Of a DNA stretch of 64,000 bases, positions 2,444 to 23,140 are shown in pieces. The translations under genes were made by a program, and so were the position numbers. The notes beneath the pieces are model-generated. The model saw only the letters and a program-made list of their open reading frames with translations, had not been told where the DNA came from and did not search any database. The stretch covers positions 1-64,000 of the forward strand of contig DWYC01000088.1 in assembly GCA_019118925.1 (NCBI GenBank). Direction: 5' to 3'. Numbering within the stretch: the first letter of the stretch is position 1; each line of letters begins with the position of its first letter. Origin of the DNA: Candidatus Flavonifractor intestinipullorum. GTDB taxonomy: Bacteria; Bacillota; Clostridia; Oscillospirales; Oscillospiraceae.

Positions 2444-3873
2444 AGAGCTTTTACCAGCGGCAGTTCCTCCTGATGGCGGGGATGGTGCTCACCTCGTTTG
2501 CTCTGCTCAGCTCGGCGTTTATGACGCTGTCCTACCAGTACACCATTCAGGATAAGCGGGAGTCCATGGAGCGCAACGCGGAATTCATCGCCCAGTTCAC
2601 CGGCGCGGTGCAGAGCAGCGGCCTGAGTCTGATGGACTCCTCCTATCAGGCCTATGTGAGTTCCATCTCCAGCATCTCCGACGCCTATGTCATCATCTGC
2701 AAGCCGGGCGGGCGGGTGATTCTGGCCTCGGAGGGGGCGTTCCGCTCGGGCGTGTCCGTCCCCTCGGTGCCTCAGGAAATCTGCCGGGAGCTGGAGGAGA
2801 CCGGGGACTACAGCGGGATGACTACCCTGGGGGGCCTTTTTCCCCAATCCCGGTATGTGGCCGGGCGGAGCGTGACCATCAGCGACTTTACGGGCAACAG
2901 CTATGAGACCAACCTGGTCTTTGTGGCGGCCGACACCGCCAGCATTACGGAGCTGTGGCGGGCGGTGGCCTCCATCTTCTTTGTCACTGCCCTGACGGTC
3001 ATTTTTATCGCCTTTATCTGCAGCGCGCTCACCTCCCGGCGCCAGACCCGGCCCATGCATGAGATCGCCGAGATGGCCCGGAAATTCGGCCACGGGGAGA
3101 TGGACGCCCGGGTAACCGGCTATGAGAACCGCCAGGACGAGGTGGGCGAGCTGGCCGAGGCCTTCAACAACATGGCCGAGTCCCTGGCCCAATCGGAGGC
3201 GCGGCGCAGCGAGTTTATCGCCAACGTCTCCCACGAGCTCAAGACCCCCATGACCACCATCGCCGGTTTCGCCGACGGGATTCTGGACGGCACCATTCCC
3301 CCGGAGAAGGAGAAGGAGTATTTAAAGACCATCTCCTCCGAGACCCGGCGGCTCTCCCGGCTGGTGCGGCGGATGCTGGACCTCTCCCGCCTGCGCTCCA
3401 ACCAGAATGTGACCGCCCAGGAGACCTTTGACATCGTAGAGCTCATGCTCCGGGTGCTGGTGAGTCTGGAGCCCAAGGTGACCGCCCGGGGACTGGATGT
3501 GGAGACGCAGCTCCCCGACGGCAGCGTGATGGTCTGGGGAGACCCGGACGCCATCACGCAGGTATGCTACAATCTGCTGGACAACGCCGTTAAATTTGCC
3601 ACCCAGGGCAGCGCCATCGGCATTTCCGTGGTCACGAAGGGCGGGAAGGCCCGCATCTCGGTGCGCAACCACGGCGAGACCATTCCGCCGGAGGAGCTGG
3701 CGCTCCTCTTCGACCGCTTCCACAAGTCCGACCGCTCCCGCAGCATGGACCGGGACGGAGTGGGGCTGGGGCTGTATATCGTCAAAACGATCCTGGGCAA
3801 CCACAAAGAAAATATCACCGTCACCAGCCAGGACGGCGTGACCGAATTCACCTTTACCCTCACCCTGGCGTAG
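2440..3873 (+). CDS. HAMP-containing sensor histidine kinase
   Basis: Overlaps the regulator stop; H-box NVSHELKTPMTTIAGF, N-box and GVGLGLYIVKTIL. Confidence 0.95.
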   Translation: MKSFYQRQFLLMAGMVLTSFALLSSAFMTLSYQYTIQDKRESMERNAEFIAQFTGAVQSSGLSLMDSSYQAYVSSISSISDAYVIICKPGGRVILASEGAFRSGVSVPSVPQEICRELEETGDYSGMTTLGGLFPQSRYVAGRSVTISDFTGNSYETNLVFVAADTASITELWRAVASIFFVTALTVIFIAFICSALTSRRQTRPMHEIAEMARKFGHGEMDARVTGYENRQDEVGELAEAFNNMAESLAQSEARRSEFIANVSHELKTPMTTIAGFADGILDGTIPPEKEKEYLKTISSETRRLSRLVRRMLDLSRLRSNQNVTAQETFDIVELMLRVLVSLEPKVTARGLDVETQLPDGSVMVWGDPDAITQVCYNLLDNAVKFATQGSAIGISVVTKGGKARISVRNHGETIPPEELALLFDRFHKSDRSRSMDRDGVGLGLYIVKTILGNHKENITVTSQDGVTEFTFTLTLA

Positions 3874-7420: not shown

Positions 7421-7454
7421 TGTAACCGGTTTTGTAACCGCCTTGTGCTATACT
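7421..7454 (+). promoter_or_regulatory. Putative activator-dependent promoter for the SipW/TasA-like locus
   Basis: Direct repeats TGTAACCGGTTT/TGTAACCGCCTT (12-bp period) just upstream of TATACT (7449-7454); no good -35 hexamer at 16-18 bp. Confidence 0.45.
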
Positions 7455-7489
7455 TATCCACAGAAGCCAAACCCCGGAATGAAATGATG

Positions 7490-7575
7490 GAAAAGAGCAA
7501 ACCATGCGAAAGCATGGGACGCAAAGCCAGAAGGCTACCGCGGAGAGGGAGAGCCTCCCCCCGCCACGCTCGTTC
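7490..7575 (+). ncRNA. Probable cyclic di-GMP-I (GEMM-I) riboswitch aptamer; boundaries approximate
   Basis: GAGCAAACCATGCGAAAGCATGGGACGCAAAGCC matches the 5' half of GEMM-I (P2 with GAAA tetraloop, then GGGACGCAAAGCC). The 3' half matches the consensus less clearly. Confidence 0.65.
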
Positions 7576-7635
7576 GGCCGCCCAGGACAGGAACCTTCCG
7601 ACCGTCTGGACGCGCGTTACTCTTTTGGCCCGCAG

Positions 7636-7670
7636 CGCCGCAGACGAGGAGACCGTCTGCGGCGTCTTTT
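7636..7670 (+). terminator. Intrinsic terminator of the riboswitch expression platform
   Basis: Perfect 11-bp stem CGCCGCAGACG/CGTCTGCGGCG with TCTTTT tail. GACCGTCTG at 7600-7608 duplicates 7651-7659, so it can compete for the 5' arm as an antiterminator. Confidence 0.75.
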
Positions 7671-7712
7671 ATGCCCGGCGCTTCTGAATCTCCGGAAAAT
7701 GAGGTGGGTCCC

Positions 7713-8285
7713 TTGCCTAAGGCAGTTCGAATCATTTGGAATACCGTGACGACGCTGCTGGCCGTCGCGGTGGTGGCGGCGGCGGTGCTGCTGGTGGGGG
7801 TGCGCCTGGTGGGGCTGACGCCCTACGTGGTCCTCAGCGGCAGTATGGAGCCCACGTATCCCACGGGCTCGCTGATCTACGTGCGGGACGTGGAGCCCAC
7901 GGAGGTGGAGGTGGGGGACCCCATCACCTTTGTCCTCGATGAGGAGCTGAACGTGGCCACCCACCGGGTGGTGGAGGTCAACGAGACCGACGGCTGGTTC
8001 CGCACCAAGGGCGACGCCAACGACGCCCCGGACGGCAGCCCCGTGCTCTTCGAAAATCTGATCGGGGAGCCGGTGTTCTGTATCCCCAAGCTGGGGTATC
8101 TCACCAATTTCCTCACCAATCCCCCCGGGATGTACCTGGGGTGGAGCGCGGTGGTAATCCTGCTGATCCTCCTCTTCGCGCCGGACCTCCTCAAGTGGGC
8201 GGACAAGCAGGACCAGAAGCCCCGGGGCAAACGCGAGGCCCACGGGACATCCGATGACGGGGGAACGCCGAAAGGCAGTAAATAA
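7713..8285 (+). CDS. sipW: SipW-type signal peptidase I
   Basis: VVLSGSMEPTYPTGSLIYVRDV and THRVVEVNETDGWFRTKGDANDAPD; probable TTG start with GAGGTGGG upstream. Confidence 0.85.
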   Translation: MPKAVRIIWNTVTTLLAVAVVAAAVLLVGVRLVGLTPYVVLSGSMEPTYPTGSLIYVRDVEPTEVEVGDPITFVLDEELNVATHRVVEVNETDGWFRTKGDANDAPDGSPVLFENLIGEPVFCIPKLGYLTNFLTNPPGMYLGWSAVVILLILLFAPDLLKWADKQDQKPRGKREAHGTSDDGGTPKGSK

Positions 8286-8371: not shown

Positions 8372-8980
8372 ATGAAAATGAAGAAGATCGTCGCGACCGG
8401 TTCCGCTCTGGCCCTGACCGCCGCCGTCGCCGTGGGCGGCACCCTGGCTTACCTGCAGGATGCGTCCGGCGATGTCGTCAACACCTTTACCTGGGACGCG
8501 AAGAATGCCATCCAGCTGACCCTGGACGAGCATAAGTATCTGCCGGAGAGCAATACGCTTGATATGGAAGCCGATCCTGTTCAGGCGAATAGTAACTATT
8601 CCATCATTCCTGGCGCTACTGCTCCCAAGGATCCCACTCTGCATTTGGACACTGAGACCGCGAGCTACCTGTACGTTGTGATTGACAACAAGCTGGGCGA
8701 GGACGTGGTTGCGATCACTGGCCTTGGCCAGAATTGGAATAGGGTGGAGAGCGCTACTCTGCCTGCTGGTGTGGCGGGTACTCTGTATTACTACACTGGC
8801 ACTGTGACCAACGGCGATTATCCTGTGTTCACCGGCGTCGAGTATGCGGATGACTTGGAGTATGACGAAGAGACCAGTGTGACCGGCACCATTACGGTGA
8901 AGGGCTTTGCTGTTCAGGCTTCCGCTGGTGGGGACGCTGTGGCCGCTTGGAATGCCACCTTCGGTGCTCCTCAGCCCTAA
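8372..8980 (+). CDS. TasA/camelysin-like SipW-dependent secreted protein
   Basis: MKMKKIVATGSALALTAAVAVGGTLAYLQDASGDVVNTFTW: SipW-type signal peptide followed by NTF motif. Confidence 0.75.
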   Translation: MKMKKIVATGSALALTAAVAVGGTLAYLQDASGDVVNTFTWDAKNAIQLTLDEHKYLPESNTLDMEADPVQANSNYSIIPGATAPKDPTLHLDTETASYLYVVIDNKLGEDVVAITGLGQNWNRVESATLPAGVAGTLYYYTGTVTNGDYPVFTGVEYADDLEYDEETSVTGTITVKGFAVQASAGGDAVAAWNATFGAPQP

Positions 8981-9031
8981 TCCTTCCTACATAACAACAA
9001 CGATTTTCTCATGAGAAAGGGAGCTTGACTT

Positions 9032-9637
9032 ATGAATATGAAGAAGAAACTGGTCGCCGGCGGTCTGGTCGCCGCTCTGGCCGCTACCGCCATCGGCGGC
9101 GCTACCCTGGCTTACTTCACCGATGAAGAAAAGGCCGTGAATACCTTCAGCGTGGGCAACGTGGACATCACTCTGACCGAGTCCGAGTGGGTTGAGAGCG
9201 ACGCCAAGCTCATCCCCGGCCGGGTTATCGACAAGAACCCCACCATCACCCTGGAGGCGGGCAGCGAGGATGCCTACACCTTCATGAAGGTGCAGCTTTC
9301 TCAGGACTTCGTGGACCTCCTGACCGATTATGCTACTGCTGCGAGCATCACCAACCCCATGGACGTGGTGGAGGACTGGTTCGTCAGCGAGGTCGGCCCC
9401 AAGGTCATGTATGTGGACGTGGACGCGGGCTATGCCATCCTGGGTGTGATGAGCCCCAAGTCGGCGGGCGACTCCGTCACCTACTTTGACCAGGTTACCG
9501 TGCCCAAGGGCGTGACTCAGGAGATGATCAGCGCTGAGGACGAGTACACCATCACCGTCACCGGCTATGCCATCCAGGCTGAGGGCTTTGACACCCGCGA
9601 GGAGGCGTTTGCCGCTCTCTTCCCTGAGCTGGCCTAA
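9032..9637 (+). CDS. TasA/camelysin-like SipW-dependent secreted protein
   Basis: MNMKKKLVAGGLVAALAATAIGGATLAYFTDEEKAVNTFSVGNVDITLTESEW; good match to the TasA family start. Confidence 0.85.
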   Translation: MNMKKKLVAGGLVAALAATAIGGATLAYFTDEEKAVNTFSVGNVDITLTESEWVESDAKLIPGRVIDKNPTITLEAGSEDAYTFMKVQLSQDFVDLLTDYATAASITNPMDVVEDWFVSEVGPKVMYVDVDAGYAILGVMSPKSAGDSVTYFDQVTVPKGVTQEMISAEDEYTITVTGYAIQAEGFDTREEAFAALFPELA

Positions 9638-9669
9638 TCCAATACTTAAGTACCGGACTTGAATGAAAG

Positions 9670-9700
9670 GGGCGGCGGGGCGTTCCCCGCCCCGCCGCCC
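9670..9700 (+). other. Very GC-rich intercistronic hairpin
   Basis: GGGCGGCGGGGCG-TTC-CCCGCCCCGCCGCCC-like stem between the second and third TasA-like genes. Confidence 0.6.
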
Positions 9701-9814
9701 AAAGGTTTTCCCGGCAAGACTGCCTGTCGGGATTCCCTGCCAAGCGGACGGCCCTCTCCCCAGGGCGGCCCGCTATGACCAAATCTCACGCAGAGAGGAA
9801 AGGCGGTAGACGAC

Positions 9815-10399
9815 ATGAAGAAACGACTTGCGGCCGGCGGCCTTGCGCTGTCGCTGCTGGCGATCCTGGGCATCGGTACCGCGGCCTACTTCGTTGCAGA
9901 TGGGCGGGCGGTGAACGAGATCACCACCGGCACCATCGATCTGACGTTGACCCAGAGCATCAACGGCGCGGTGATCGATACCACCGCACTGGAGGAGATC
10001 ATGCCCGGCGAGACGGTGAACCAGACGGCCGACATCGAGAACGCGGGCAACCATCCCTTCTGGACCCGGGCGCGGTATGAGGTGACCATCACCGCTGCCG
10101 ACGGTACCACGGAGCTGCCCGCCGCGCTGGAGGACGGCACGCCGGTCATCACCTTCGGCGCGGGGGAGGGCTGGCTGGACGGCGGCGACGGCTGGTATTA
10201 CTGCCCGGACATCGTCCCCGTGGGCGAGAGCGTCACTCCCTTCCGCGAGGTGACCTTCGCCGCCGGGGCCGGCAACGAATATCAGGGCTGCGACATTTCC
10301 ATCGCCGTGGACGCCCAGGCGGTCCAGAGCGATAACAATACCCCCGACAGCGGCAGCGTTCTGGAGGTCAAGGGCTGGCCCGAGACCGAGACACCCTAA
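9815..10399 (+). CDS. TasA/camelysin-like secreted protein
   Basis: MKKRLAAGGLALSLLAILGIGTAAYFVADGRAVNEITTGTIDLTLTQ. Confidence 0.75.
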   Translation: MKKRLAAGGLALSLLAILGIGTAAYFVADGRAVNEITTGTIDLTLTQSINGAVIDTTALEEIMPGETVNQTADIENAGNHPFWTRARYEVTITAADGTTELPAALEDGTPVITFGAGEGWLDGGDGWYYCPDIVPVGESVTPFREVTFAAGAGNEYQGCDISIAVDAQAVQSDNNTPDSGSVLEVKGWPETETP

Positions 10400-10420: not shown

Positions 10421-13400
10421 ATGTATAATTGGAAAAAGCGCCTGCTGGCGGCGGCGCTGGCCGGTTGCATGGCCATGGGGCTGATGACGCCCGCGCTGGC
10501 TGTGGAAGTGGATGCGTCCACCTCTCCCACCGAGACGGTGGAGGAGACCACCGCGCCGGTGACGGACGAGACCACGGCCCCCACCGACGAGGTGGACCCC
10601 GGCTTTAGCGTGGACCCCAGCCAGGAGCCCTCTGAGGAGCCCAGCGAGAGCGTGGAGCCCTCGGCGGAGCCTTCCGAAGAGCCCAGCGAGAGCGTGGAGC
10701 CCTCGGCGGAGCCTTCCGAGGAGCCCAGCGAGAGCGTAGAGCCCTCGGCGGAGCCTTCCGAGGAGCCCGGCGAGAGCCCGGAGCCCAGCGCCGAGCCTTC
10801 GGCCGAGCCCTCCCTGCCCCCCGAGGTGGAGATCCCCGAGGAGAGCATCCCCCTGGACCCCGGCTTTGAGGTGCCCGACTACGGCAGCATGACCACCGAG
10901 GAGCTCTATGAGGCGCTGCAGTCCTTCGGCGGCGACGCCGCCCTGGAAGAGGCGTTCTATGCCCTCCTGACCGAGGAGCAGATCGCCGCCCTGGAGGCGT
11001 ACATTCAGGAGCAGGAGGAGCAGGCCCTGGAGGCGGAGTACCCCGCCATCCCCGCCCAGTCCGCCACCGATGAGGCCAACGGCGTCACGGTGACGGTGTC
11101 GGCGCCGGCCGGCGCGTTCCCGGCGGGGACCGAGCTGACCATTGAGCTCGTTCAGACCCCCAACCCCCTGACTCGCATGTTCACCCAGGACCAGAAGGCC
11201 ATGGTGGACGAGGCTGTGGCCGAAGCCTTGGCGGAAGAGCCCGCCGAGCCGCAGCAGTCGGTGGCCTTCGACATCACCTTCCGGCTCGACGGCGCGGAGG
11301 TGCAGCCCCGGGAGGGCTACACCGTCAGCGTGACCTTCGATGTGGAGAGCGCCAGCGCCCTTCTGGACGGCGCCGACCAGCTCCAGGTGTTCCACGTGGA
11401 CGGCGACGCCGTGGCCGAGGCCGTGGGCGAGGCCGTCGCGGTGGACCCCGAGGCCGACACCCAGCAGATCGCCGTGGAGGCCGAGCAGTTCTCCATCTAT
11501 GCCCTGACTGCGGCGGTCACACCGAGAGCAAGCTATGAGGTCAATTTGGCTGATCTAAATGGCATGACGTTCCAGGTCGGCGATGTAATTGAGGTAACTG
11601 CCCAAGAAGAGAATCGATATCAGTGGAACGTCACTTCTGGTAGAGACTGCGTAACAGTTCAATCTTTGCCGGATACAAACACCGGTGGATGGTGGCCTAC
11701 CTACTATAAACATTGGCAGATCACCATGAATGAGCCGGGAAGTGTAACCGTTCAGTACGGATATACTGACTGGTGGGGGTGGCATGGTACTCAAGCCACG
11801 TTTACGATTGAGGAACCGGTCCCCGCCGGTCCTCTGACCATTGAAGATCAGATCAACCGGAACGGCAGCCTGATTCCGGTGCTGAACCGTGACGAAGCGG
11901 GCGTCCCGGCAGATGCTGAAGTCACCTACCGCTGGTACAGAGCGGAGAACAACGGCAGTGCCCCCGCATTTAAGGAGTGCGCGGAGGTGACGGGCGATGC
12001 GCTGGATACTCAGTACGCTCCTGAAAACGGCGTCAACGTAGCTGTGGACCAGGGCGGCAAGTACTGGTACTATGTGACCGCCACCTATACTACAGATGCG
12101 GGTGGTGCAGAACAGACGCTCCGCTCTGCACCCTACTGGGTGCCCTACTCCAATGAGCTGGAGAACGGTGGATTTGAGGATCCAGATACCAGTGAGTATG
12201 GCTATGGTTGGAGTGTACAGTTCAACCAGAATGAAGAGTTCCTTCTCAATCCGTCCAGTGCCGCAGATCATACCGCCCTGTGGTGGAAATCCACTGGCGA
12301 AGGATACAGCCAAACCAACGGGACCGTCCATATTGAGTATGTGGCCCCGGATAAGGGAGATCCTACGAGCGAGTTCAGCGCCAGATGGGGCGCGGGTACG
12401 CCTACAAGCCCGAACGCAACCGGCAGCGATCAGTATGCAGAGCTGAACTGCGAGGCATTTGGCGCACTCTATCAGGACGTGCTGACAGCCCCCGGTGCAG
12501 AGCTCTATTGGAGCCTGTCGCACCGCGGCCGAGAAGGCGTAGACGAAATGGCTGTGGTAATTATGCCCGCCTCTGAAGCACGGAATATTACCACACAGTC
12601 GCAGCTGGAGCAGGTACTGACTAATCCGGGAAAGTATAACGCGGCTGTGACTTATATTAAGAGCGATGCGGATGCGTGGCACTCCTACTCCAGTACGATG
12701 GACATGGCAGACAGCGAGGGGGCGTATGACCGGAACACGAATATCGCGTATAACGCCACGCCGGATATGTTCAACGCGGACGGCTCCTATAAGGGAAGCG
12801 GTGAGTATCTGACCCGGTTCTTCTTTGTCGCAGTCAACACATTCACAGGGGATCCTACGGTCGGCAACCTGATTGACGAGGTCAGCTTCTCCGACGATCT
12901 GTCCTATACCATTAACTATTATCTGGGTGATGCTTCTACTCCTGACCGGACGGAGCACGACAGTGCAGATCCCTTTACCCGGGTGACTGCGGATGTGAGT
13001 AGCTATCTGGGTGAGGGCTGGACAGTTGAGCGTACTGAGATCGACGGGGAGGATGCGAATGGCAGTTTGCAGATGCTCCTGACTGCCAGCGGGATGACAC
13101 TGAATGTGTACCTGATTCAGGGCGGCATCACGGTCGTGAAGCAAGTCGCGGGCGTGACATTGACCGGGAGCTACACGGCAAACTTTGCGCTGTACGAAGA
13201 TAATAATGGCAGCGTAGGGAGTCAGGTAGCAAAGGCAAGCGTCACCGTCAACTCGGGGACGGGCGCAGGCAGTGTAGTCTTTACGGACATGAAGGGAGAG
13301 CGGTTCATTCCCGAAATAAGTGCCACCTACTATATCTGTGAAACTTCCACATTGCCAGTGGATGGGTACAGCCTGACCTCTACGACGTATGACGGTGCGC

Positions 13401-14014
13401 CGGCCACGGACGGTTATTACCAATTTAGTGTTAATCAGAACGGCGTAGCCTCCATCACGGTGGTCAACACCTACACGGAGAAGCCCAAGTTCGGCAGCCT
13501 GACCATCATCAAGGAGGTAGCGGGTACGGACCCCATCGAGCAGAGCTTCATCTTCACGGTGACCAGCCCGGACGGCTTCTCCATGAGCGTCGTCATGAGC
13601 CCGGAGGACTTCGGCTCGGAGCGCAGCTGCAGTGTTACCATCACGAACCTCCCGGTGGGTTCGTATACCGTGACCGAGGACACCGGCTGGTCTTGGAAGT
13701 ATGAGTGTACTAGCCAATCGTCCCAAGAAGTTGAAATCAGCGCGGAAAATCTTAATCCGACGGTAGAATTTACTAACAAGGATAAGGGGAGCTCGTGGCT
13801 GGGCGGCACGGACATTGTGGAGAACGTGTTTGACAAAGTGAGTAGCGATTCCGGTGCGCAGGTGACCCCTGCGGCCAACACGGACGCCAACGTGACGCCG
13901 CTGCCCACGGCCCCCAAGGACCCCGAGGAGGACCAGGGCGACAAGAACAACAACACCGAACCCGACCCCGGCGAGGAGGCCATGACCCAGGAGGGAGGCG
14001 AGAGCAATGTTTGA
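10421..14014 (+). CDS. Large secreted surface protein with EPS(E/A)-repeat linker and C-terminal Cna-B/SpaA-like (prealbumin-like) domains
   Basis: Classical signal peptide ending TPALA, EEPSESVEPSAEPS repeats, and domains such as GSLTIIKEVAGTDPIEQSFIFTVTS...LPVGSYTVTEDTGW. No LPxTG seen. Confidence 0.75.
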   Translation: MYNWKKRLLAAALAGCMAMGLMTPALAVEVDASTSPTETVEETTAPVTDETTAPTDEVDPGFSVDPSQEPSEEPSESVEPSAEPSEEPSESVEPSAEPSEEPSESVEPSAEPSEEPGESPEPSAEPSAEPSLPPEVEIPEESIPLDPGFEVPDYGSMTTEELYEALQSFGGDAALEEAFYALLTEEQIAALEAYIQEQEEQALEAEYPAIPAQSATDEANGVTVTVSAPAGAFPAGTELTIELVQTPNPLTRMFTQDQKAMVDEAVAEALAEEPAEPQQSVAFDITFRLDGAEVQPREGYTVSVTFDVESASALLDGADQLQVFHVDGDAVAEAVGEAVAVDPEADTQQIAVEAEQFSIYALTAAVTPRASYEVNLADLNGMTFQVGDVIEVTAQEENRYQWNVTSGRDCVTVQSLPDTNTGGWWPTYYKHWQITMNEPGSVTVQYGYTDWWGWHGTQATFTIEEPVPAGPLTIEDQINRNGSLIPVLNRDEAGVPADAEVTYRWYRAENNGSAPAFKECAEVTGDALDTQYAPENGVNVAVDQGGKYWYYVTATYTTDAGGAEQTLRSAPYWVPYSNELENGGFEDPDTSEYGYGWSVQFNQNEEFLLNPSSAADHTALWWKSTGEGYSQTNGTVHIEYVAPDKGDPTSEFSARWGAGTPTSPNATGSDQYAELNCEAFGALYQDVLTAPGAELYWSLSHRGREGVDEMAVVIMPASEARNITTQSQLEQVLTNPGKYNAAVTYIKSDADAWHSYSSTMDMADSEGAYDRNTNIAYNATPDMFNADGSYKGSGEYLTRFFFVAVNTFTGDPTVGNLIDEVSFSDDLSYTINYYLGDASTPDRTEHDSADPFTRVTADVSSYLGEGWTVERTEIDGEDANGSLQMLLTASGMTLNVYLIQGGITVVKQVAGVTLTGSYTANFALYEDNNGSVGSQVAKASVTVNSGTGAGSVVFTDMKGERFIPEISATYYICETSTLPVDGYSLTSTTYDGAPATDGYYQFSVNQNGVASITVVNTYTEKPKFGSLTIIKEVAGTDPIEQSFIFTVTSPDGFSMSVVMSPEDFGSERSCSVTITNLPVGSYTVTEDTGWSWKYECTSQSSQEVEISAENLNPTVEFTNKDKGSSWLGGTDIVENVFDKVSSDSGAQVTPAANTDANVTPLPTAPKDPEEDQGDKNNNTEPDPGEEAMTQEGGESNV
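10634..10801 (+). repeat. 42-bp in-frame tandem repeat (3 near-perfect plus 1 degenerate unit)
   Basis: GAGGAGCCCAGCGAGAGCGTGGAGCCCTCGGCGGAGCCTTCC units at 10634, 10676, 10718, and a degenerate one at 10760 (EEPSESVEPSAEPS). Confidence 0.9.
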
Positions 14015-14627
14015 CCGGAAGAAATATGAAGGCAAGCGTGCCCTGCGCCGCTGGCCCAAGTGGCTGCCCGCGGCGGCGGCGGTAGCGCTGATCGCCACGC
14101 TGGCGGTGGGCGGAACCCTGGCCTGGCTGTCGGCCTACACCCAACCGGTGAAGAACACCTTCGTCATGGGCACGGTTCCCCCGCAGGTAACGGAGAGCTT
14201 TAATCAGAAAGTTAAAGAAGACGTCAAAGTTACCAACCATGGCAACATCCCCGCGTACATCCGCGTGGCGCTGGTCTGCACCTGGCAGGATGACAGCAGA
14301 AATGTAGTAGGCGAGCCCGCCAGCCTGGACGACCTTATCATCGACTGGGGAACAGAAGGCGGCTCTGAAACTGCTGAAGCTCCCGGAAACGGTTGGATCA
14401 AAATCGGTGACTACTACTACTACACCCAGCCGGTAGCGGCGGGAGATACTACGTTTAACCTGATTGACTCGGCGAGGGTCAAAGATGATGCGGCCACCAA
14501 TGGCTATCACATGAATCTCCAGGTCATCGCCGACTCCATCCAGGCGAACCCCACCAGCGTGGTCCAAAGCCAGTGGGGCGTTATGGTAGATGAGAACGGT
14601 GCAATTACCGGCTCTACTAACAACTAA
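14007..14627 (+). CDS. TasA/camelysin-like SipW-dependent secreted protein
   Basis: ALRRWPKWLPAAAAVALIATLAVGGTLAWLSAYTQPVKNTFVMGTV; ATG overlaps upstream stop (ATGTTTGA). Confidence 0.75.
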   Translation: MFDRKKYEGKRALRRWPKWLPAAAAVALIATLAVGGTLAWLSAYTQPVKNTFVMGTVPPQVTESFNQKVKEDVKVTNHGNIPAYIRVALVCTWQDDSRNVVGEPASLDDLIIDWGTEGGSETAEAPGNGWIKIGDYYYYTQPVAAGDTTFNLIDSARVKDDAATNGYHMNLQVIADSIQANPTSVVQSQWGVMVDENGAITGSTNN

Positions 14628-14641
14628 GGAGGTGACTGACG

Positions 14642-16150
14642 ATGAAAAAACATACCCTTCGCGCACTGATGGCGGGAGGCGTGGCCGCGGCTCTGCTGTG
14701 CGGCATCGTCGCGGTCACCGCCCTGGCGGACGGCAACGTCCCCACCGTGACCTATGATCACGCCAACCGGCAGTTCGTGTTTACCAACTTCAATGACGAC
14801 TACATCACCGACGGCGACGGGGCGAAGTACCCCAACCTGTTTCAGGCCATGGACGGCGGCGACGGCAACGGCCTGATGCCCGGCGACACGGTCACTCAGG
14901 AAATCCACGTCACCACCAGCGGCATGGGCTCCGGCTCGGTGATCCTGACCCTGCGGGCGGAGCCCACCGCCGACGCCGACGCCAACGCCGACTATGAAAA
15001 GCTCCTCTCCGCCACCGGTGAGGACGAGGACGGCGACGGCCAGCCCGACGGCGTGACCCTCACCGTCCGGGAGAAGAACGGCGCCACCATGACCGACATG
15101 AACGGCAACGTGGTGGAGGAGATCTCCGGCTCCCTGGGCGAGGGCGTCACTCTGGGCCGCCTCTACCGGGGCGACAGCCTGGATCTGATGGTCACGCTGA
15201 ACATCCCCGTGACCGTAGGCAATGAGCTCCAGGGCCTGGAGGCCCAGGTGGGCTGGGTCTTTACCGCCGACTACCGCTCCGGCGGCGGCGGGACCGATCC
15301 GGATCCCGATCCCAGCAATTCCGGCGGCGGCGGGACGGACATCCCCGAGGAGAGCACGCCTCTGGGTCCGCTGCCCGATCTGGAGCGGGGCGACCACTTT
15401 GCCTACATCGTGGGCCGTGACGACGGTCTGGTCCACCCCGAGGCCGAGATCACCCGCGCCGAGGTGGGCACCATCTTCTTCCGCCTGCTGACCGAGGAGT
15501 CCCGGAACCAGTTCTGGGCCACCACCAACCCCTACACCGACGTCCCCTCGGACGCCTGGTTCAACAAGGCCATCTCCACCCTGACCAACGCGGGTATCAT
15601 CTACGGCCGCGGCGCGGGCATCTTTGACCCCGACGCCTCCATCACCCGTGCGGAGTTTGCCGCCATGGCCGTCCGGTTCTTCGGCGGCGGCTACGAGGGC
15701 GAGGACCTGTTCAGTGACATCGACGGCCACTGGGCCCAGGATGCCATCAACCAGGCCGCCAACCAGGGTATCGTCAGCGGCTATCCCGACGGCACCTTCC
15801 GGCCCGACAACAACATCACCCGTTCGGAGGCCATCTCCATCATCAACCGGGTGCTGGACCGCCGGCCCGAGAAGGACCACCTGCTGGCCGAGGAGGATAT
15901 GATCACCTGGCCCGACAACATGGACACCTCCACCTGGTACTACGCGGACATCCAGGAGGCCACCAACTCCCACGACTACGATCCCTCGGAGGAGCGGGAC
16001 GAGGAAGGCAACCAGTACGAGATCTGGACCGGTTCGCTGCCCGTGCGTGACTGGATCACGCTGGAGCGCGCCTGGACCAACTCCAACGAGTCCGTCAACC
16101 CCGGTGACGTCATGTTCGTCACCTCCCGGGAGAGCGCGGTTATCCGTTAA
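14642..16150 (+). CDS. S-layer homology (SLH) domain protein with TasA-like N-terminal region
   Basis: SLH motifs AEITRAEVGTIFFRLL, YTDVPSDAWFNKAISTLTNAGIIYGRGAGIFDPDASITRAEFAAM, FSDIDGHWAQDAINQAANQGIVSGYPDGTFRPDNNITRSEA. Confidence 0.85.
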   Translation: MKKHTLRALMAGGVAAALLCGIVAVTALADGNVPTVTYDHANRQFVFTNFNDDYITDGDGAKYPNLFQAMDGGDGNGLMPGDTVTQEIHVTTSGMGSGSVILTLRAEPTADADANADYEKLLSATGEDEDGDGQPDGVTLTVREKNGATMTDMNGNVVEEISGSLGEGVTLGRLYRGDSLDLMVTLNIPVTVGNELQGLEAQVGWVFTADYRSGGGGTDPDPDPSNSGGGGTDIPEESTPLGPLPDLERGDHFAYIVGRDDGLVHPEAEITRAEVGTIFFRLLTEESRNQFWATTNPYTDVPSDAWFNKAISTLTNAGIIYGRGAGIFDPDASITRAEFAAMAVRFFGGGYEGEDLFSDIDGHWAQDAINQAANQGIVSGYPDGTFRPDNNITRSEAISIINRVLDRRPEKDHLLAEEDMITWPDNMDTSTWYYADIQEATNSHDYDPSEERDEEGNQYEIWTGSLPVRDWITLERAWTNSNESVNPGDVMFVTSRESAVIR

Positions 16151-16976: not shown

Positions 16977-17975
16977 TTACGCGCGCTCGTCCAGCTCCTG
17001 GAAGCGGTGACAGAGGACGTGGTGGCCCTCCTCCGCCTCCACCCACTGGGGAACCTGGGCGCAGGCCTCCTGGGCGTAGGGACAGCGGGTGCGGAAGCGG
17101 CAGCCCGAGGGGGGATCGGCGGGGCTGGGGATGTCGCCCTCCAGAAGGATGCGGTCCCGCCGGCCGAAATTGCCCACCTGGGGCGCGGCGGAGAGGAGCG
17201 CCTTGGTATAGGGGTGCAGGGGGTGGTTGAAGATGGTCTCGGTGTCGCCCAGCTCCACCATCTGACCCAGGTACATGATGGCCACCCGGTCGCACAGATA
17301 CTCCACCACGCTCAGGTCGTGGCTGATGAAGAGGTAGGTGAGGCCCAGCTTTTCCTGCAATTCCCGCAGGAGGTTCAAAATTTGGGCCCGGACCGACACG
17401 TCCAGGGCGGAGACCGGCTCGTCACAGATGATGAGCTTGGGCTGGGTAGCCAGAGCCCGGGCGATGACGATGCGCTGGCGCTGGCCGCCGGAGAACTCAT
17501 GGGGGTAGCGGTTCATGTGGGTCTCGTTGAGGCCCACCATCTGCAAGAGCTCCTTGACCCGGGCCTCCCGCTCGCCGGGGCCGGTGTAGAGCCCCCGGAT
17601 GCGCATGGGCTCCTCAATGATCTGCCGCACGGTCATGCGGGGGTGCAGGGAGCTGTAGGGGTCCTGAAAGACGATCTGCATATCCTTGCGCAGGGCGCGC
17701 AGCTGATGCTTGTTCTGAGCCATGAGGTCGGTTCCGTCAAAGGTGATGGCGCCGCTGGTGGGCTCAATGAGCCGCAGCACCGTACGGGCGAGGGTGGTCT
17801 TGCCGCAGCCCGACTCCCCGACGAGCCCCAGCGTCTCCCCCTCGTAGAGGCGGAAGCTCACGTGGTTGACGGCCTGGACATAGCGCTTCTCCTCAAAGAA
17901 CCAGCCTTTGATGGGGAACCACTTGCACACGTCGTCCGCCTGAAGCAGGACCTTGCGGGCGGTGTTTTCAGCCAT
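16977..17975 (-). CDS. Oligopeptide/dipeptide ABC transporter ATP-binding protein (OppF/DppF-like)
   Basis: [32 protein letters not shown] class motif, C-terminal Cys-rich oligopeptide_HPY-type region. Confidence 0.93.
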
Positions 17976-18949
17976 TACTTAGCCACCTCCTCATAGCGGA
18001 AACAGCGGACGGCGTGACCGCTGCCCATGTCGTAGAGCGGGGGCTTGGCGCGATTGCACCGCTCGGTGGCGTAGGGGCAGCGGGGGGCGAACACGCACCC
18101 CTTGGGGAAATCCAGCGCGGAGGGTACCGAGCCGGGGATCACATGGAGCTTCTCCCGGCTGCCCCGCTGGGGCAGAGAGGCCTTCAGCCCCTGGGTATAG
18201 GGGTGGAGGGGCTCGGTAAAGACGGCGGCGGTGGGGCCCTCCTCCATCACGTCCCCGCAGTAGAGCACCAGGGTGCGGCTGCACAGCTCGCTGACCACCC
18301 CCAGGTCGTGGGTGATGAAGGCGATGGCGGTGCCCAGCTCGTCCCGGAGCTTGCACATCAGGTCCAGGACCTGGGCCTGGATGGTTACGTCCAGGGCGGT
18401 GGTGGGCTCGTCGGCGATGAGCAGCTCCGGCCGGCAGGCCAGGGCCATGGCGATCATCACCCGCTGGCGCAGGCCGCCCGAGAGCTCATAGGGGTAGCAG
18501 TCCACCCGTTTTTCGGGCATGGGCACGTTGACCATGCGCAGGGCCTCGATGGACTTCTCCCGGGCCTCCTTTTTATTGAGGCCCTGATGGAGGCGAAAGA
18601 CCTCCATGAGCTGGTGCCCCACGGTAAAGACCGGATTGAGAGAGGTCATGGGCTCCTGAAAGATCATGGACACCCGGTTGCCCCGGATGTGGCGGAAGTC
18701 CTTCATGGGCATATCCAGCAGGCTCTCGCCGTCAAGCTCGATGCGGCCGGAGACCCTGGCGTTCTTCTGGGTCAGGCGCATGATGGCCAGGGCCGTCATG
18801 CTCTTGCCGCAGCCCGACTCGCCCACGATGCCCAGGGTCTCCCCCTTGTGGATATCGAAGGTCAGGCCGTGGAGGATGTCCAGGGTGGCGGTGTCGGTCT
18901 CGATGGAGACATGCAGGTCCTCTACATGCAATGCGATGTCGTTGTTCAT
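17975..18949 (-). CDS. Oligopeptide/dipeptide ABC transporter ATP-binding protein (OppD/DppD-like)
   Basis: [48 protein letters not shown]. Confidence 0.93.
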
Positions 18950-18962
18950 GCTTCCGCCTCCC

Positions 18963-19796
18963 TTACTTCATTTTGGGGTCCAACAGGTCCCGCAGGCCGT
19001 CGCCCAGGATGCTGATGCTCAGCACCGTCACCACAATGGCGAGGCCGGGGTAGATGGCCATATAGGGGTGGGTGATGACAAAATCCTTGGCCACGCTGAG
19101 AATGCCGCCCCAGGTGGGGACATTGGGGTCCACGCCCACGCCCAGGAAGCTCAGGGACGCCTCGGTGAGGATGGCGCTGGCCATGGTGGTGGTGAACCGG
19201 ATGATGAGGGGCGAGACGCACAGGGGCAGGATGTACTTGAACATAATGCGCGCGTCGGTGGCGCCCATGGCCCGGGCGCTCTCCACATGCTCGCTCTCCT
19301 TGATGGAGAGGACCTGGCTGCGGACGATACGGGCCACGCTGGGGGTGCCCACGATGGCCAGGGCGGTGATGACCTTGTCCACGCCGTTGCCGAAGATACA
19401 CGCGAGAGTCAGGGCCAGCAACATCTCCGGAAAAGCGGAGACGCCCTCCAGCACCCGCATGACGATCTTGTCCAGGGTCTTATAGTAGCCCATCAGCAGG
19501 CCCAGCACAATGCCGCCGGCGGTGGACACCACCGCCACCAGCACGCCCACCAGCAGGGAGATCCGGGCCCCGTAGAGCACCCGGGAGAAGATATCCCGGC
19601 CGAAGCGGTCGGTGCCCATAAAGTGGACCGAGCTGGGGAACTGGTTCTGATCCAGGGGATTGAGGGCGTTGGGGTCGTAAGTGGTGATGAGGGGAGCGGC
19701 GATGGAGATGAGGATGATGGCGGCCAGTACGCCGCCGCCGAGCAGAATCCGGCCGTATTTCCGCAGGAAGGCGGAGAGAGTCATTTTGTGTTGCAT
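18963..19796 (-). CDS. Peptide ABC transporter permease (DppC-like)
   Basis: HFMGTDRFGRDIFSRVLYGARISLLVG and EASLSFLGVGVDPNVPTWGGIL. Confidence 0.93.
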   Translation of the reverse strand: MQHKMTLSAFLRKYGRILLGGGVLAAIILISIAAPLITTYDPNALNPLDQNQFPSSVHFMGTDRFGRDIFSRVLYGARISLLVGVLVAVVSTAGGIVLGLLMGYYKTLDKIVMRVLEGVSAFPEMLLALTLACIFGNGVDKVITALAIVGTPSVARIVRSQVLSIKESEHVESARAMGATDARIMFKYILPLCVSPLIIRFTTTMASAILTEASLSFLGVGVDPNVPTWGGILSVAKDFVITHPYMAIYPGLAIVVTVLSISILGDGLRDLLDPKMK

Positions 19797-19811
19797 TGCT
19801 TCTCCTCCCCG

Positions 19812-20759
19812 TCAATTGAGCTCGACCCGGGGGTCAAAGACCTTATAGAGCAGGTCCACCACCAGATTGACTACGATGTACACCAGAGCCACCACCAGGA
19901 TGATGGCCTGAACCTGGGTATAGTCCCGGCGGATCAGAGAGTCGTAGGCCAGCTTGCCCATGCCGTTGATGCCGAACACCGTCTCGATCACGCAGGCGCC
20001 GCCCATCAGAGAGGCGATGTTGGTGCCGATGTGGGTGATCACTGGGGACATGGCGTTCTTCAGGGCGTGCTGGTAGAGCACGACCCGCTCGGCCAGGCCC
20101 TTGGCCCGGGCAGTGCGGATATAGTCGTCCCCCAGCACGTCCAGCATGGTGGAGCGGGTATAGCGGGCGATGGAGGCCACGCTCTGGAAGCCCAGGGCCA
20201 CCGAGGGCAGGATCACATACCGGATGGACTGGAGCAGTCCCACCTCTGCAATGGGGTAGTAGTTCATATTGGGCAGCACGCCCCAGAGGGTGCCCACGTA
20301 GTAGGCCAGCATGATGCCGCTCCAGAACACGGGGATGGACAGGCCGAAAACCGACACGGTCATGAGCAGATAGTCGAGAACGCTGTTGCGCTTGACCGCG
20401 CTGATGATGCCCACGGGGATGCCGATGATGACCGAGATGAGAATGCTCAGAATCATGATGAGGACCGTGGGCTCCAGGCTGTTGCGGATGTTCTCAAAGA
20501 CGGGCAGGTTGTTGTACATGGACGTACCCCAGTCCCCCCGCAGCAGGTCCTGAATGTACTCCACGAACTGTACGGGCAGGGGCTTGTTCAGCCCCAGGGT
20601 CTCCCGCAGAATCTCCAGGTCGCCCGGCGGGGCGTCCCGGCCCAGAATGAGCACCGCCACGTCGCCGGGAAGCATCCGCATGAGAAAGAAGGTGATGAAC
20701 ACCACGATCAGGAGCACGGGAATGGCGGAGAGAATGCGTTTGAGGGTGTATTTTAACAC
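19812..20759 (-). CDS. Peptide ABC transporter permease (DppB-like)
   Basis: MLKYTLKRILSAIPVLLIVVFITFFLMRMLPGD and RYTRSTMLDVLGDDYIRTARAKGL. Confidence 0.93.
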   Translation of the reverse strand: MLKYTLKRILSAIPVLLIVVFITFFLMRMLPGDVAVLILGRDAPPGDLEILRETLGLNKPLPVQFVEYIQDLLRGDWGTSMYNNLPVFENIRNSLEPTVLIMILSILISVIIGIPVGIISAVKRNSVLDYLLMTVSVFGLSIPVFWSGIMLAYYVGTLWGVLPNMNYYPIAEVGLLQSIRYVILPSVALGFQSVASIARYTRSTMLDVLGDDYIRTARAKGLAERVVLYQHALKNAMSPVITHIGTNIASLMGGACVIETVFGINGMGKLAYDSLIRRDYTQVQAIILVVALVYIVVNLVVDLLYKVFDPRVELN

Positions 20760-20814
20760 AGATGTCCTTCCTCCTTGTGGAAAAAATAACCCGGCGCAGC
20801 GCCGTACCGGGGAA

Positions 20815-20842
20815 GGCAGGGGAAGCCGCGGCCTCCCCTGCC
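20815..20842 (-). other. Intercistronic hairpin between binding protein and permease genes
   Basis: GGCAGGGGAAGCCGCGGCCTCCCCTGCC. Confidence 0.5.
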
Positions 20843-20858
20843 CTAAAAAGCTATGAAT

Positions 20859-22544
20859 TTATGCCGCGGAGGTAAAGTAGGAGTTCCACCAGTACATGTC
20901 CACGCCCTGACGGTCGGGGATCATATCGGAGGAGTACCAGCACACGGTGCCGAAGTCGCCCAGAATGATATAGGGGACCTCTTCGTCCAGGAGCGTACAG
21001 AAATCGGTAAAGGCCTGGATGCTCTCCTCACTGCCGGCGGCGGTGGTGCCCAGGCGGTTCAGGATCTCCTGGCGCTCGGGGCTGTCCCACAGGAGGTAGC
21101 CGGTGACAAACTGGCTGAGCAGGGGGTGCAGATAGGACTTCTGCGTCTCCCGGCAGCAGATGTCGAAGTCGCCGCAGTTGGGGTCGTTGTAGCTGCTCTC
21201 ATAGGTGGTGACGTCCTTGACCTGTAGGTCCACGTTCACACCGATGGCCCGCAGCATCTCGGCGGCGGGCAGGGCGGTGGTGTAGTAGGAGTCGGAGTCG
21301 GCGCACCACCAGCGGATGGTCTCGCCGTTGTAGCCGGAGGCCTCCAGATACTCCCTGGCCTGGTCCAGATCCTGGCCCATATTCTGGTTGAGGATCTCGT
21401 TATAATAGGGGCTGGAGGGCATCATGGGGCAGCCGTCCACCGCGTACTGAGTGGGATCGGTCTTGGTGGAGAGCAGAATCTGATTGGCGTCCAGGCAGGC
21501 CCGGACGGCCTTGCGGAAGTTCACGTCCTGGACGATGCTGTTGCTGTTGGCCTCGGTCAGATTGAAGATGATGGTGGGGGACCAGCCGTTCCAGTCCTTA
21601 TCGCTCCAGCAGCCGGCGTTCTCCAGCTGGGGGGCCATGTCGGTGAGGATGGAGGTGGAGTAGTCGAAGTTGCCGCCGATCATGCCGTTGGCCCGGGCGG
21701 TCTGGTCGCTGGCCACGCTGCAGTAGATCTTGTCGAAGTAGGCGTGCTTGGGGGCGGCGGGGCCGGTGCCGGCCATGTCGTCGGGCACGGGCACATAGTC
21801 CTCAAACCGGGTGAGGGTCAGGTCGGTCTCCCGGTTCCAGGTCTCCAGCATATAGGGGCCGGTGCCGATGATCTCACTGTCGTCGGTAATATAGGAGTCC
21901 ATGTGGGCCTGTGCGATCTCGGCGGGCATGACCTTGCACCCGCCCTTGAGCTCGCCGATGGTGAGCAGGGCGATGGGGGCCACGGCGGAGAGGGTGTAGA
22001 CCACGGTGGAGTCGTCCACCACCTCGGTATTGACGATATAGTCGCCGAAGTTGGTCTGACCGTTGGTGGAGTAGACCAGGAAGCGGTCGATGGAGGCCAC
22101 CACGTCGTGGATGTCCACCGTATCGCCGTTGTGGAACTTGACGTTCTCCCGCACGGTGAGGGTGAGCTGAAGGTTGTTCTCGCTCATCTCATAGGTGCAC
22201 ACGCCGGGCCAGACGGTGCCGTCGTCGGCCACCTGAACCGGGGACTCGTAGATGTGATAGCCGGGGACATAGTTCTGATTGGTGAAGAACTGGGCGGGGT
22301 CCAGGGAGTTGGTGGCGCCGTTGAAGTTCAGGCGCATGGTGCCGCCGTACTTGTCCTCCTCGGCGGTGGTGTCGGCGGCCAGGCGCTGGGCGCTGGTGCC
22401 CTCCTGGAAGCTGGACGAGGCCTGACCACCGCTGGGGGCGGCGGAGGCGGCGGGCTGTCCGCCGCCGTCACAGCCGGCCAGGACGCCCAGAAGCAGGGCC
22501 CCGGCGGTGAGGACGCTCAGGACGCGGGTGGGAGTACGATTCAT
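20859..22544 (-). CDS. Peptide ABC transporter substrate-binding lipoprotein (SBP_bac_5)
   Basis: MNRTPTRVLSVLTAGALLLGVLAGC lipobox; family motifs GTMRLNFNGATNSLDPAQF, VKFHNGDTVDIHDVVASIDRF. Confidence 0.92.
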   Translation of the reverse strand: MNRTPTRVLSVLTAGALLLGVLAGCDGGGQPAASAAPSGGQASSSFQEGTSAQRLAADTTAEEDKYGGTMRLNFNGATNSLDPAQFFTNQNYVPGYHIYESPVQVADDGTVWPGVCTYEMSENNLQLTLTVRENVKFHNGDTVDIHDVVASIDRFLVYSTNGQTNFGDYIVNTEVVDDSTVVYTLSAVAPIALLTIGELKGGCKVMPAEIAQAHMDSYITDDSEIIGTGPYMLETWNRETDLTLTRFEDYVPVPDDMAGTGPAAPKHAYFDKIYCSVASDQTARANGMIGGNFDYSTSILTDMAPQLENAGCWSDKDWNGWSPTIIFNLTEANSNSIVQDVNFRKAVRACLDANQILLSTKTDPTQYAVDGCPMMPSSPYYNEILNQNMGQDLDQAREYLEASGYNGETIRWWCADSDSYYTTALPAAEMLRAIGVNVDLQVKDVTTYESSYNDPNCGDFDICCRETQKSYLHPLLSQFVTGYLLWDSPERQEILNRLGTTAAGSEESIQAFTDFCTLLDEEVPYIILGDFGTVCWYSSDMIPDRQGVDMYWWNSYFTSAA

Positions 22545-23140
22545 TGGTAGATCCTCCTTTATGTTGATGATACCCAAATGGGGCCTGCGGGCCCCGGAGT
22601 TTCCATACAAAGAAATTGCCATGGACCGTCCCACGCTGAGGAACATCCATGGCAGTATATGGGCGGGATAAGCCCATAAAAGCAGTCAATGATAACGCTC
22701 CACACATGTGGCAGTCTGGGGGATATTCTCCCACAGCCCAGGCAGCCGGCCCCGTGGGCGGCGGGACGGCCCTTCGGCGGCCAAGCCTTTCCCCAGCAGG
22801 GCCGCCCGCCCCGAAGCCTGGATACTCATCTTTGCCGCGCCTCTACCATTGATTCCAATCTTATGGTTTTGGAAACAATCAGATATATATTGGAATTCTA
22901 CCAAATCTGCGGCCTGGTGTCAATATATCTGGCGATATATTTCCCGCATTCCGGGCCATTTTGCACGCTGCGGCGCAACTTGCACAGCGGTGCGGCCCAT
23001 GGTAGAATAAAGTTCCCAGTTTATTACGGACGGAAGGAGCGGTGCGCCATGGACAGCGAGCAGCGCAAAAAGAGAGCCGTGGCCGTTGGCCCGGCGGGAG
23101 AAAGGAGGGATGAGACAACAATTTGAAAGGAGCGTTTGCG

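Follow-up and report, generated by a model that had tools for sequence, protein, structure and literature searches.

The window, by which we mean the whole 64-kb stretch of DNA analysed, carries on its forward strand a riboswitch leader with an intrinsic terminator and, behind it, a run of genes for surface proteins that may form a single operon (Table 1). The SipW-like gene at its head probably starts at TTG 7713 rather than at ATG 7671, since the orthologues begin at the same residue behind GAGGTG; the ATG sits at the end of the terminator U tract. Two of the three small proteins encoded next (9032-9637 and 9815-10399) are camelysin/TasA-like (PF12389, TIGR04088), and the other (8372-8980), which gave no family match, was called secreted from its position and signal-peptide-like N-terminus alone. 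As in a SipW-TasA-type locus, a SipW-like peptidase is found beside proteins with SipW-type signal peptides, TIGR02228 and TIGR04088 both scoring above cut-off; the Bacillus models of SipW (NF046067) and TasA (NF046066) matched under their own cut-offs. These domain matches bear out the surface genes (SipW, TasA-like, SLH) named in an earlier note made from the sequence.

Table 1. Features of the leader and of the gene run behind it
Feature	Position	Strand	Basis or remark
Extended -10 promoter element TGC-TATACT (candidate)	7446..7454	+	sequence, inferred
c-di-GMP-I (GEMM-I) aptamer	7486..7585	+	RF01051, 60.6 vs 35 bits
J1/2 ligand-pocket strand GGAAAAGAGC	7489..7498	+	7491-7497 complementary to 7620-7626
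A at the Vc2 G20 position (specificity base)	7496..7496	+	cmscan alignment
P2, GAAA tetraloop at 7508-7511	7497..7522	+	cmscan alignment
P3, lengthened, tetraloop receptor degenerate	7528..7580	+	cmscan alignment
Putative antiterminator 5' strand GACCGTCTGG	7600..7609	+	duplex p 0.07; folding models
CUCUUUU, candidate anti-aptamer strand complementary to J1/2	7620..7626	+	folding, duplex energies, alignment
Intrinsic terminator, hairpin 7635-7665 and U tract	7635..7671	+	12-bp stem, loop 7, then CTTTTATG
SipW-like signal peptidase I	7713..8285	+	PF10502, TIGR02228
Three small secreted proteins (8372-8980, 9032-9637, 9815-10399)	8372..10399	+	
Large surface protein, SpaA prealbumin-like domain	10421..14014	+	PF17802
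SipW-type signal-peptide protein (14007-14627), SLH-domain protein (14642-16150)	14007..16150	+	TIGR04088, PF00395

The aptamer belongs to the known riboswitch class GEMM-I. The covariance-model search with Rfam 15 gave a match to RF01051 above the gathering cut-off (E 2.2e-9 calculated over the whole 64-kb window), and no other family in Rfam exceeded its cut-off at 7486-7585; matches to miRNA, STnc240 and further families near the aptamer were dropped, their scores lying under their own cut-offs. In agreement with the model, the GEMM-I signature that the earlier note had described is present base for base at 7497-7528 (GCAAACC-ATGC-GAAA-GCAT-GGGACGCAAAGCC), and the terminator that it named was confirmed as a strong intrinsic one. 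In the cmscan alignment the lower pairs of P2, G7497-C7522 and C7498-G7521, conform to the c-di-GMP type, and both A47 (A7523) and the 3' ligand-pairing C (C92; CC at 7581-7582) are present. The 3' half had been called atypical, which holds for the long P3 and the weak tetraloop receptor (CUACC...CACG against the consensus CUAAG...UAUG, the P2 GAAA tetraloop being intact), but the functionally important deviation, A7496, sits in the 5' half. Apart from the ligand question raised by this base and the layout of the platform, the element is ordinary, and the earlier reading of the riboswitch was mostly right.

The promoter-like sequence GTGCTATACT also occurs upstream of the aptamer in a related genome, G009. 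In another, G006 (locus L054, about 3130-3350), it lies 3' of the riboswitch terminator, and sipW there may thus have a second, riboswitch-independent promoter. Among the loci searched outside the genus, a GEMM-I hit upstream of sipW was seen only at L171, so the link between GEMM-I and sipW is essentially confined to the genus. The sole other above-cut-off Rfam match in the window is a lysine riboswitch (RF00168, 22685-22853, minus strand, 80.4 bits) upstream of a minus-strand gene run encoding a peptide-type ABC transporter (16977-22646), which is either an unusual lysine-riboswitch target or a lysine/oligopeptide importer.

Position 20 and its possible partner strand

Position 11 of the Rfam model, which we take to be the ligand-contacting G20 of Vc2, is aligned with A7496, and the element thus lacks the G20 expected of the c-di-GMP class. 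G20 makes a Hoogsteen contact to one guanine of c-di-GMP; the Rfam model is satisfied without it, whereas the name of the ligand leans on it. The six terminator-linked copies read in the genus (the window, G002, G006, G009 and two in G008) all share this A20; every one has an intrinsic terminator, and four of them, in the window, G002, G006 and G009, lie upstream of sipW. The nine other genus copies read (L046-L049, L051, L052, L055, L059 and L060) have G20 and are followed by a Shine-Dalgarno sequence and, within tens of bases, a start codon. A split of 6/6 against 0/9 by platform would arise by chance in about 1 in 5005 draws, related copies not being independent, and aptamers of both kinds occur side by side in one genome, divided by platform.

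More widely, A20 was detected in 25 of 401 family genomes and in 8 of 394 genomes drawn from the order, mostly in other contexts, and the idea that it is unique to the fibre locus was dropped on the family count. The A20 leader of G356 stands upstream of genes for a coiled-coil protein, a signal peptidase and a surface protein, so the surface-target theme recurs. Three further A20 observations concern single genomes. In G008 the second leader with a terminator (L057, contig C145) has behind it an acyl-CoA-ligase-like gene and one for a large secreted protein, in place of sipW. A single leader of G457 (L192/L209, C1 near 518811-518921) holds tandem A20 GEMM-I aptamers spaced by 79 nt, with a third GEMM-like copy directly behind. 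In G195 (genus g55 of the same family; 99% complete) A20 was found in each of the four GEMM-I copies, and the GGDEF domains read from it all lack the Hypr Ser; this makes it well suited for settling what A20 aptamers sense.

When the eight leaders whose J1/2 has the form GAAAA(G/A)AGC (the window, G002, G006, G008a, G008b, G009, G356 and G697) were folded freely, several paired J1/2 (GGAAAAGAGC) with a GCUCUUUUCC farther downstream. Duplex energies were compared with 500 dinucleotide-shuffled linkers per leader, and J1/2 paired better with the natural linker than with the shuffles in five of the eight (p.002 in G002, <.002 in G006,.004 in G009, <.002 in G356 and.014 in G697, against.20 in G008a and.42 in G008b). 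The pairing in the window is just 7 bp long and not significant alone (p.19); G008a and G008b have a longer J1/2 complement (9 and 8 nt) downstream of the aptamer, beyond the tested linker. Two compensated changes, G-C to A-U in G002 and G356, were seen, the formal test for covariation, made on seven rows, being weak. Judged by these comparisons, no other switching element of the related leaders appears as well supported as the J1/2 pairing with GCUCUUUUCC. A comparable arrangement exists in G20 paralogues (L001 at G000:C26:47855-47941, and L010 on G008:C158), where the J1/2 sequence TGATAAA is complementary to a TTTATCA abutting the Shine-Dalgarno sequence AAGGAGG; pairing of the pocket strand may thus drive translational control too.

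A20 might be kept for the sake of the platform, as the partner of a U in the anti-aptamer strand, with ligand choice unchanged. A20 lies opposite U in 7/7 aligned leaders, and substitution of the equivalent G11 by A or C in the C. difficile riboswitch Cd1 brought neither large stabilisation nor large destabilisation (PMC9262584). However, G could also pair there as G-U, and U-pairing fails as a general account of A20 because such a platform is missing from the majority of A20 copies in the rest of the family. We regard this explanation as rather unlikely; it addresses why the base has been retained and does not conflict with the ligand-induced ON switch considered below.

Possible antitermination and the predicted direction of switching

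The earlier note had proposed that GACCGTCTG at 7600-7608, which we confirm to be an exact copy of 7651-7659, acts as an antiterminator by capturing CAGACG, located at 7641-7646. In the window the duplex of this strand with the terminator 5' arm scores -12.9 kcal/mol; 7% of dinucleotide-shuffled linkers do as well or better, a suggestive result. Across the leaders the corresponding p values were.07 (window),.064 (G002),.17 (G006),.13 (G008a),.81 (G008b),.012 (G009),.35 (G356) and.99 (G697). The proposed antiterminator is thus plausible, with moderate support and with the window alone indecisive, but the better-supported switch in related leaders is the pairing of J1/2 described above. Linker hairpins in which the P1 3' strand pairs with the antiterminator, considered as a common anti-antiterminator, seemed promising for the window and for G006 and were dropped, as the eight linker folds do not share them.

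Switching was modelled on transcripts that stop just before the terminator 3' arm, the bound state being represented by a blocked J1/2 and a self-confined aptamer with soft penalties. From free to bound, modelled antiterminator pairing rises from 0.40 to 0.80 in the window, 0.38 to 0.94 in G006, 0.23 to 0.70 in G009, 0.01 to 0.93 in G356 and 0.04 to 0.57 in G697; the model gives no switching in G002 and G008a, and in G008b the antiterminator is almost absent. The mean gain over the eight leaders, 0.36, exceeds all 60 of 60 shuffled means (0.18 +/- 0.07), and the window's own gain, matched by 23 of 60 shuffles, is not significant alone. The window helices 7491-7497 x 7620-7626 and about 7603-7608 x 7641-7646 cross, and are therefore mutually exclusive in a nested fold. 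In equilibrium folds of the complete leader the terminator is present in the free and bound states alike, so that the decision must be kinetic, made during transcription.

On these folding models, a ligand-induced ON switch is most likely, being the simplest reading. Without ligand, J1/2 would pair with CUCUUUU further along the leader, and the terminator would form. With ligand, J1/2 would be retained in the aptamer, leaving the linker strand near 7600-7609 to pair with the terminator 5' arm, and RNA polymerase would read through the resulting antiterminated leader into sipW. In the opposite arrangement the bound ligand would favour the terminator, as in Cd1, where transcriptional OFF control is established for this class (PMC9262584). 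The full-length folds, which end in the terminator whether free or bound, agree with such an OFF switch, but 0/8 leaders had clearly more antiterminator when free (the largest drop, in G008a, was 0.09). Matrix production, moreover, is usually promoted by c-di-GMP. An OFF switch accordingly seems unlikely to us, and the ON switch is retained in what follows.

Ligand and comparison with known systems

A20 is a distinguishing mark of GEMM-Ib, the type that senses cGAMP: in the cGAMP riboswitch of Geobacter (4YAZ) the equivalent base is A14, within J1/2 A9-A14, followed by the P2 pair C15-G40 (PMC6274999), and the G20A mutant of Vc2 binds cGAMP (PMC7288161). A cGAMP-selective riboswitch in a gut Firmicute, served by a synthase unrecognised there, would also accord with the division of A20 and G20 aptamers by platform within one genome. 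Against this, the lower P2 pair G7497-C7522 is G-C, whereas 4YAZ has C-G there. Single-base changes in lower P2 are reported to shift ligand selectivity, and the cGAMP class has been described from Gram-negatives (both PMC9262584). Hypr GGDEFs, which have Ser where canonical GGDEFs have Asp (PMC6456294), were not seen among the domains read from ten genus genomes and seven other A20 genomes, those of the larger genomes being sampled in part; the catalytic domains read have Asp at this position. A SMODS (DncV-type) synthase was absent from the host genome (assembly 81% complete) and from 9 of 10 A20 genomes searched, the exception being G273. We therefore consider cGAMP selectivity quite unlikely. 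Very improbable, in our estimate, is its extension to two channels built on one fold in gut Oscillospirales, with G20 aptamers reading c-di-GMP beside start codons and A20 aptamers reading cGAMP from an unrecognised synthase and turning surface fibres on by antitermination.

Because of the G-C pair in lower P2 and the absence of a Hypr-type GGDEF (cGAMP synthase) among the domains read, c-di-GMP is predicted to be the likelier natural ligand. The selectivity of the A20 pocket may be looser, and 3',3'-cGAMP may also be accepted; cGAMP riboswitches are reported to bind c-di-GMP as well (PMC9262584). The aptamer class named in the earlier note is upheld and its ligand, c-di-GMP, is likely, but the A at the specificity base, which the note does not mention, leaves the ligand unsecured. 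In two genus genomes GGDEF genes lie less than 2 kb from a GEMM-I riboswitch (G002:C117:6828-7286 and G005:C6:148398-148826). That the aptamer is degenerate and binds nothing, the terminator merely setting a low basal level, is hardly likely at all: the P3 tetraloop receptor is degenerate and the RF01051 score is the lowest among the subtype copies scored, but that score is still 60.6 bits, the core, GAAA loop, P2 and P3 are intact, and position and form are conserved across species of the genus.

Taken as a whole, it is probable that this GEMM-I riboswitch, most likely an ON switch, uses transcription attenuation to regulate a SipW-TasA-type surface-fibre operon in response to a ligand that is most likely c-di-GMP, bound through an A20 pocket. 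Such control would link the production of SipW-TasA-type fibres by Flavonifractor-like gut bacteria with a cyclic dinucleotide; in the literature covered, which was incomplete, we found no paper linking a SipW-TasA operon with a c-di-GMP riboswitch. The presence of A20 and G20 aptamers in one genome, with no Hypr GGDEF seen, offers a natural test of A20 sensing outside Geobacter. What adds interest is an A20 pocket in bacteria where no cGAMP synthase was recognised, together with a platform that would hide the pocket strand itself.

The window element resembles the GEMM-I riboswitches Vc2 and Cd1 in aptamer fold, core sequence and P2 GAAA tetraloop, and Cd1 also in having a transcriptional terminator in the leader. 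It differs from both in its A at position 20 and weak tetraloop receptor, and from Cd1, an OFF switch, in being predicted ON. With GEMM-Ib riboswitches such as that of G. metallireducens pilM and 4YAZ it shares A20, predicted transcriptional ON control and a pilus/fibre-type target, whereas its G-C rather than C-G pair in lower P2, its Firmicute host and the lack of Hypr GGDEFs among the domains read set it apart. The pilM terminator captures the 3' ligand-pairing C (PMC9262584), whereas the window platform would instead hide J1/2. Finally, the pairing of a SipW-like peptidase with camelysin/TasA-like substrates recalls the tapA-sipW-tasA loci and BsaA-SipW of Clostridium perfringens, to which the window adds SpaA-domain and SLH proteins, all behind a GEMM-I leader.
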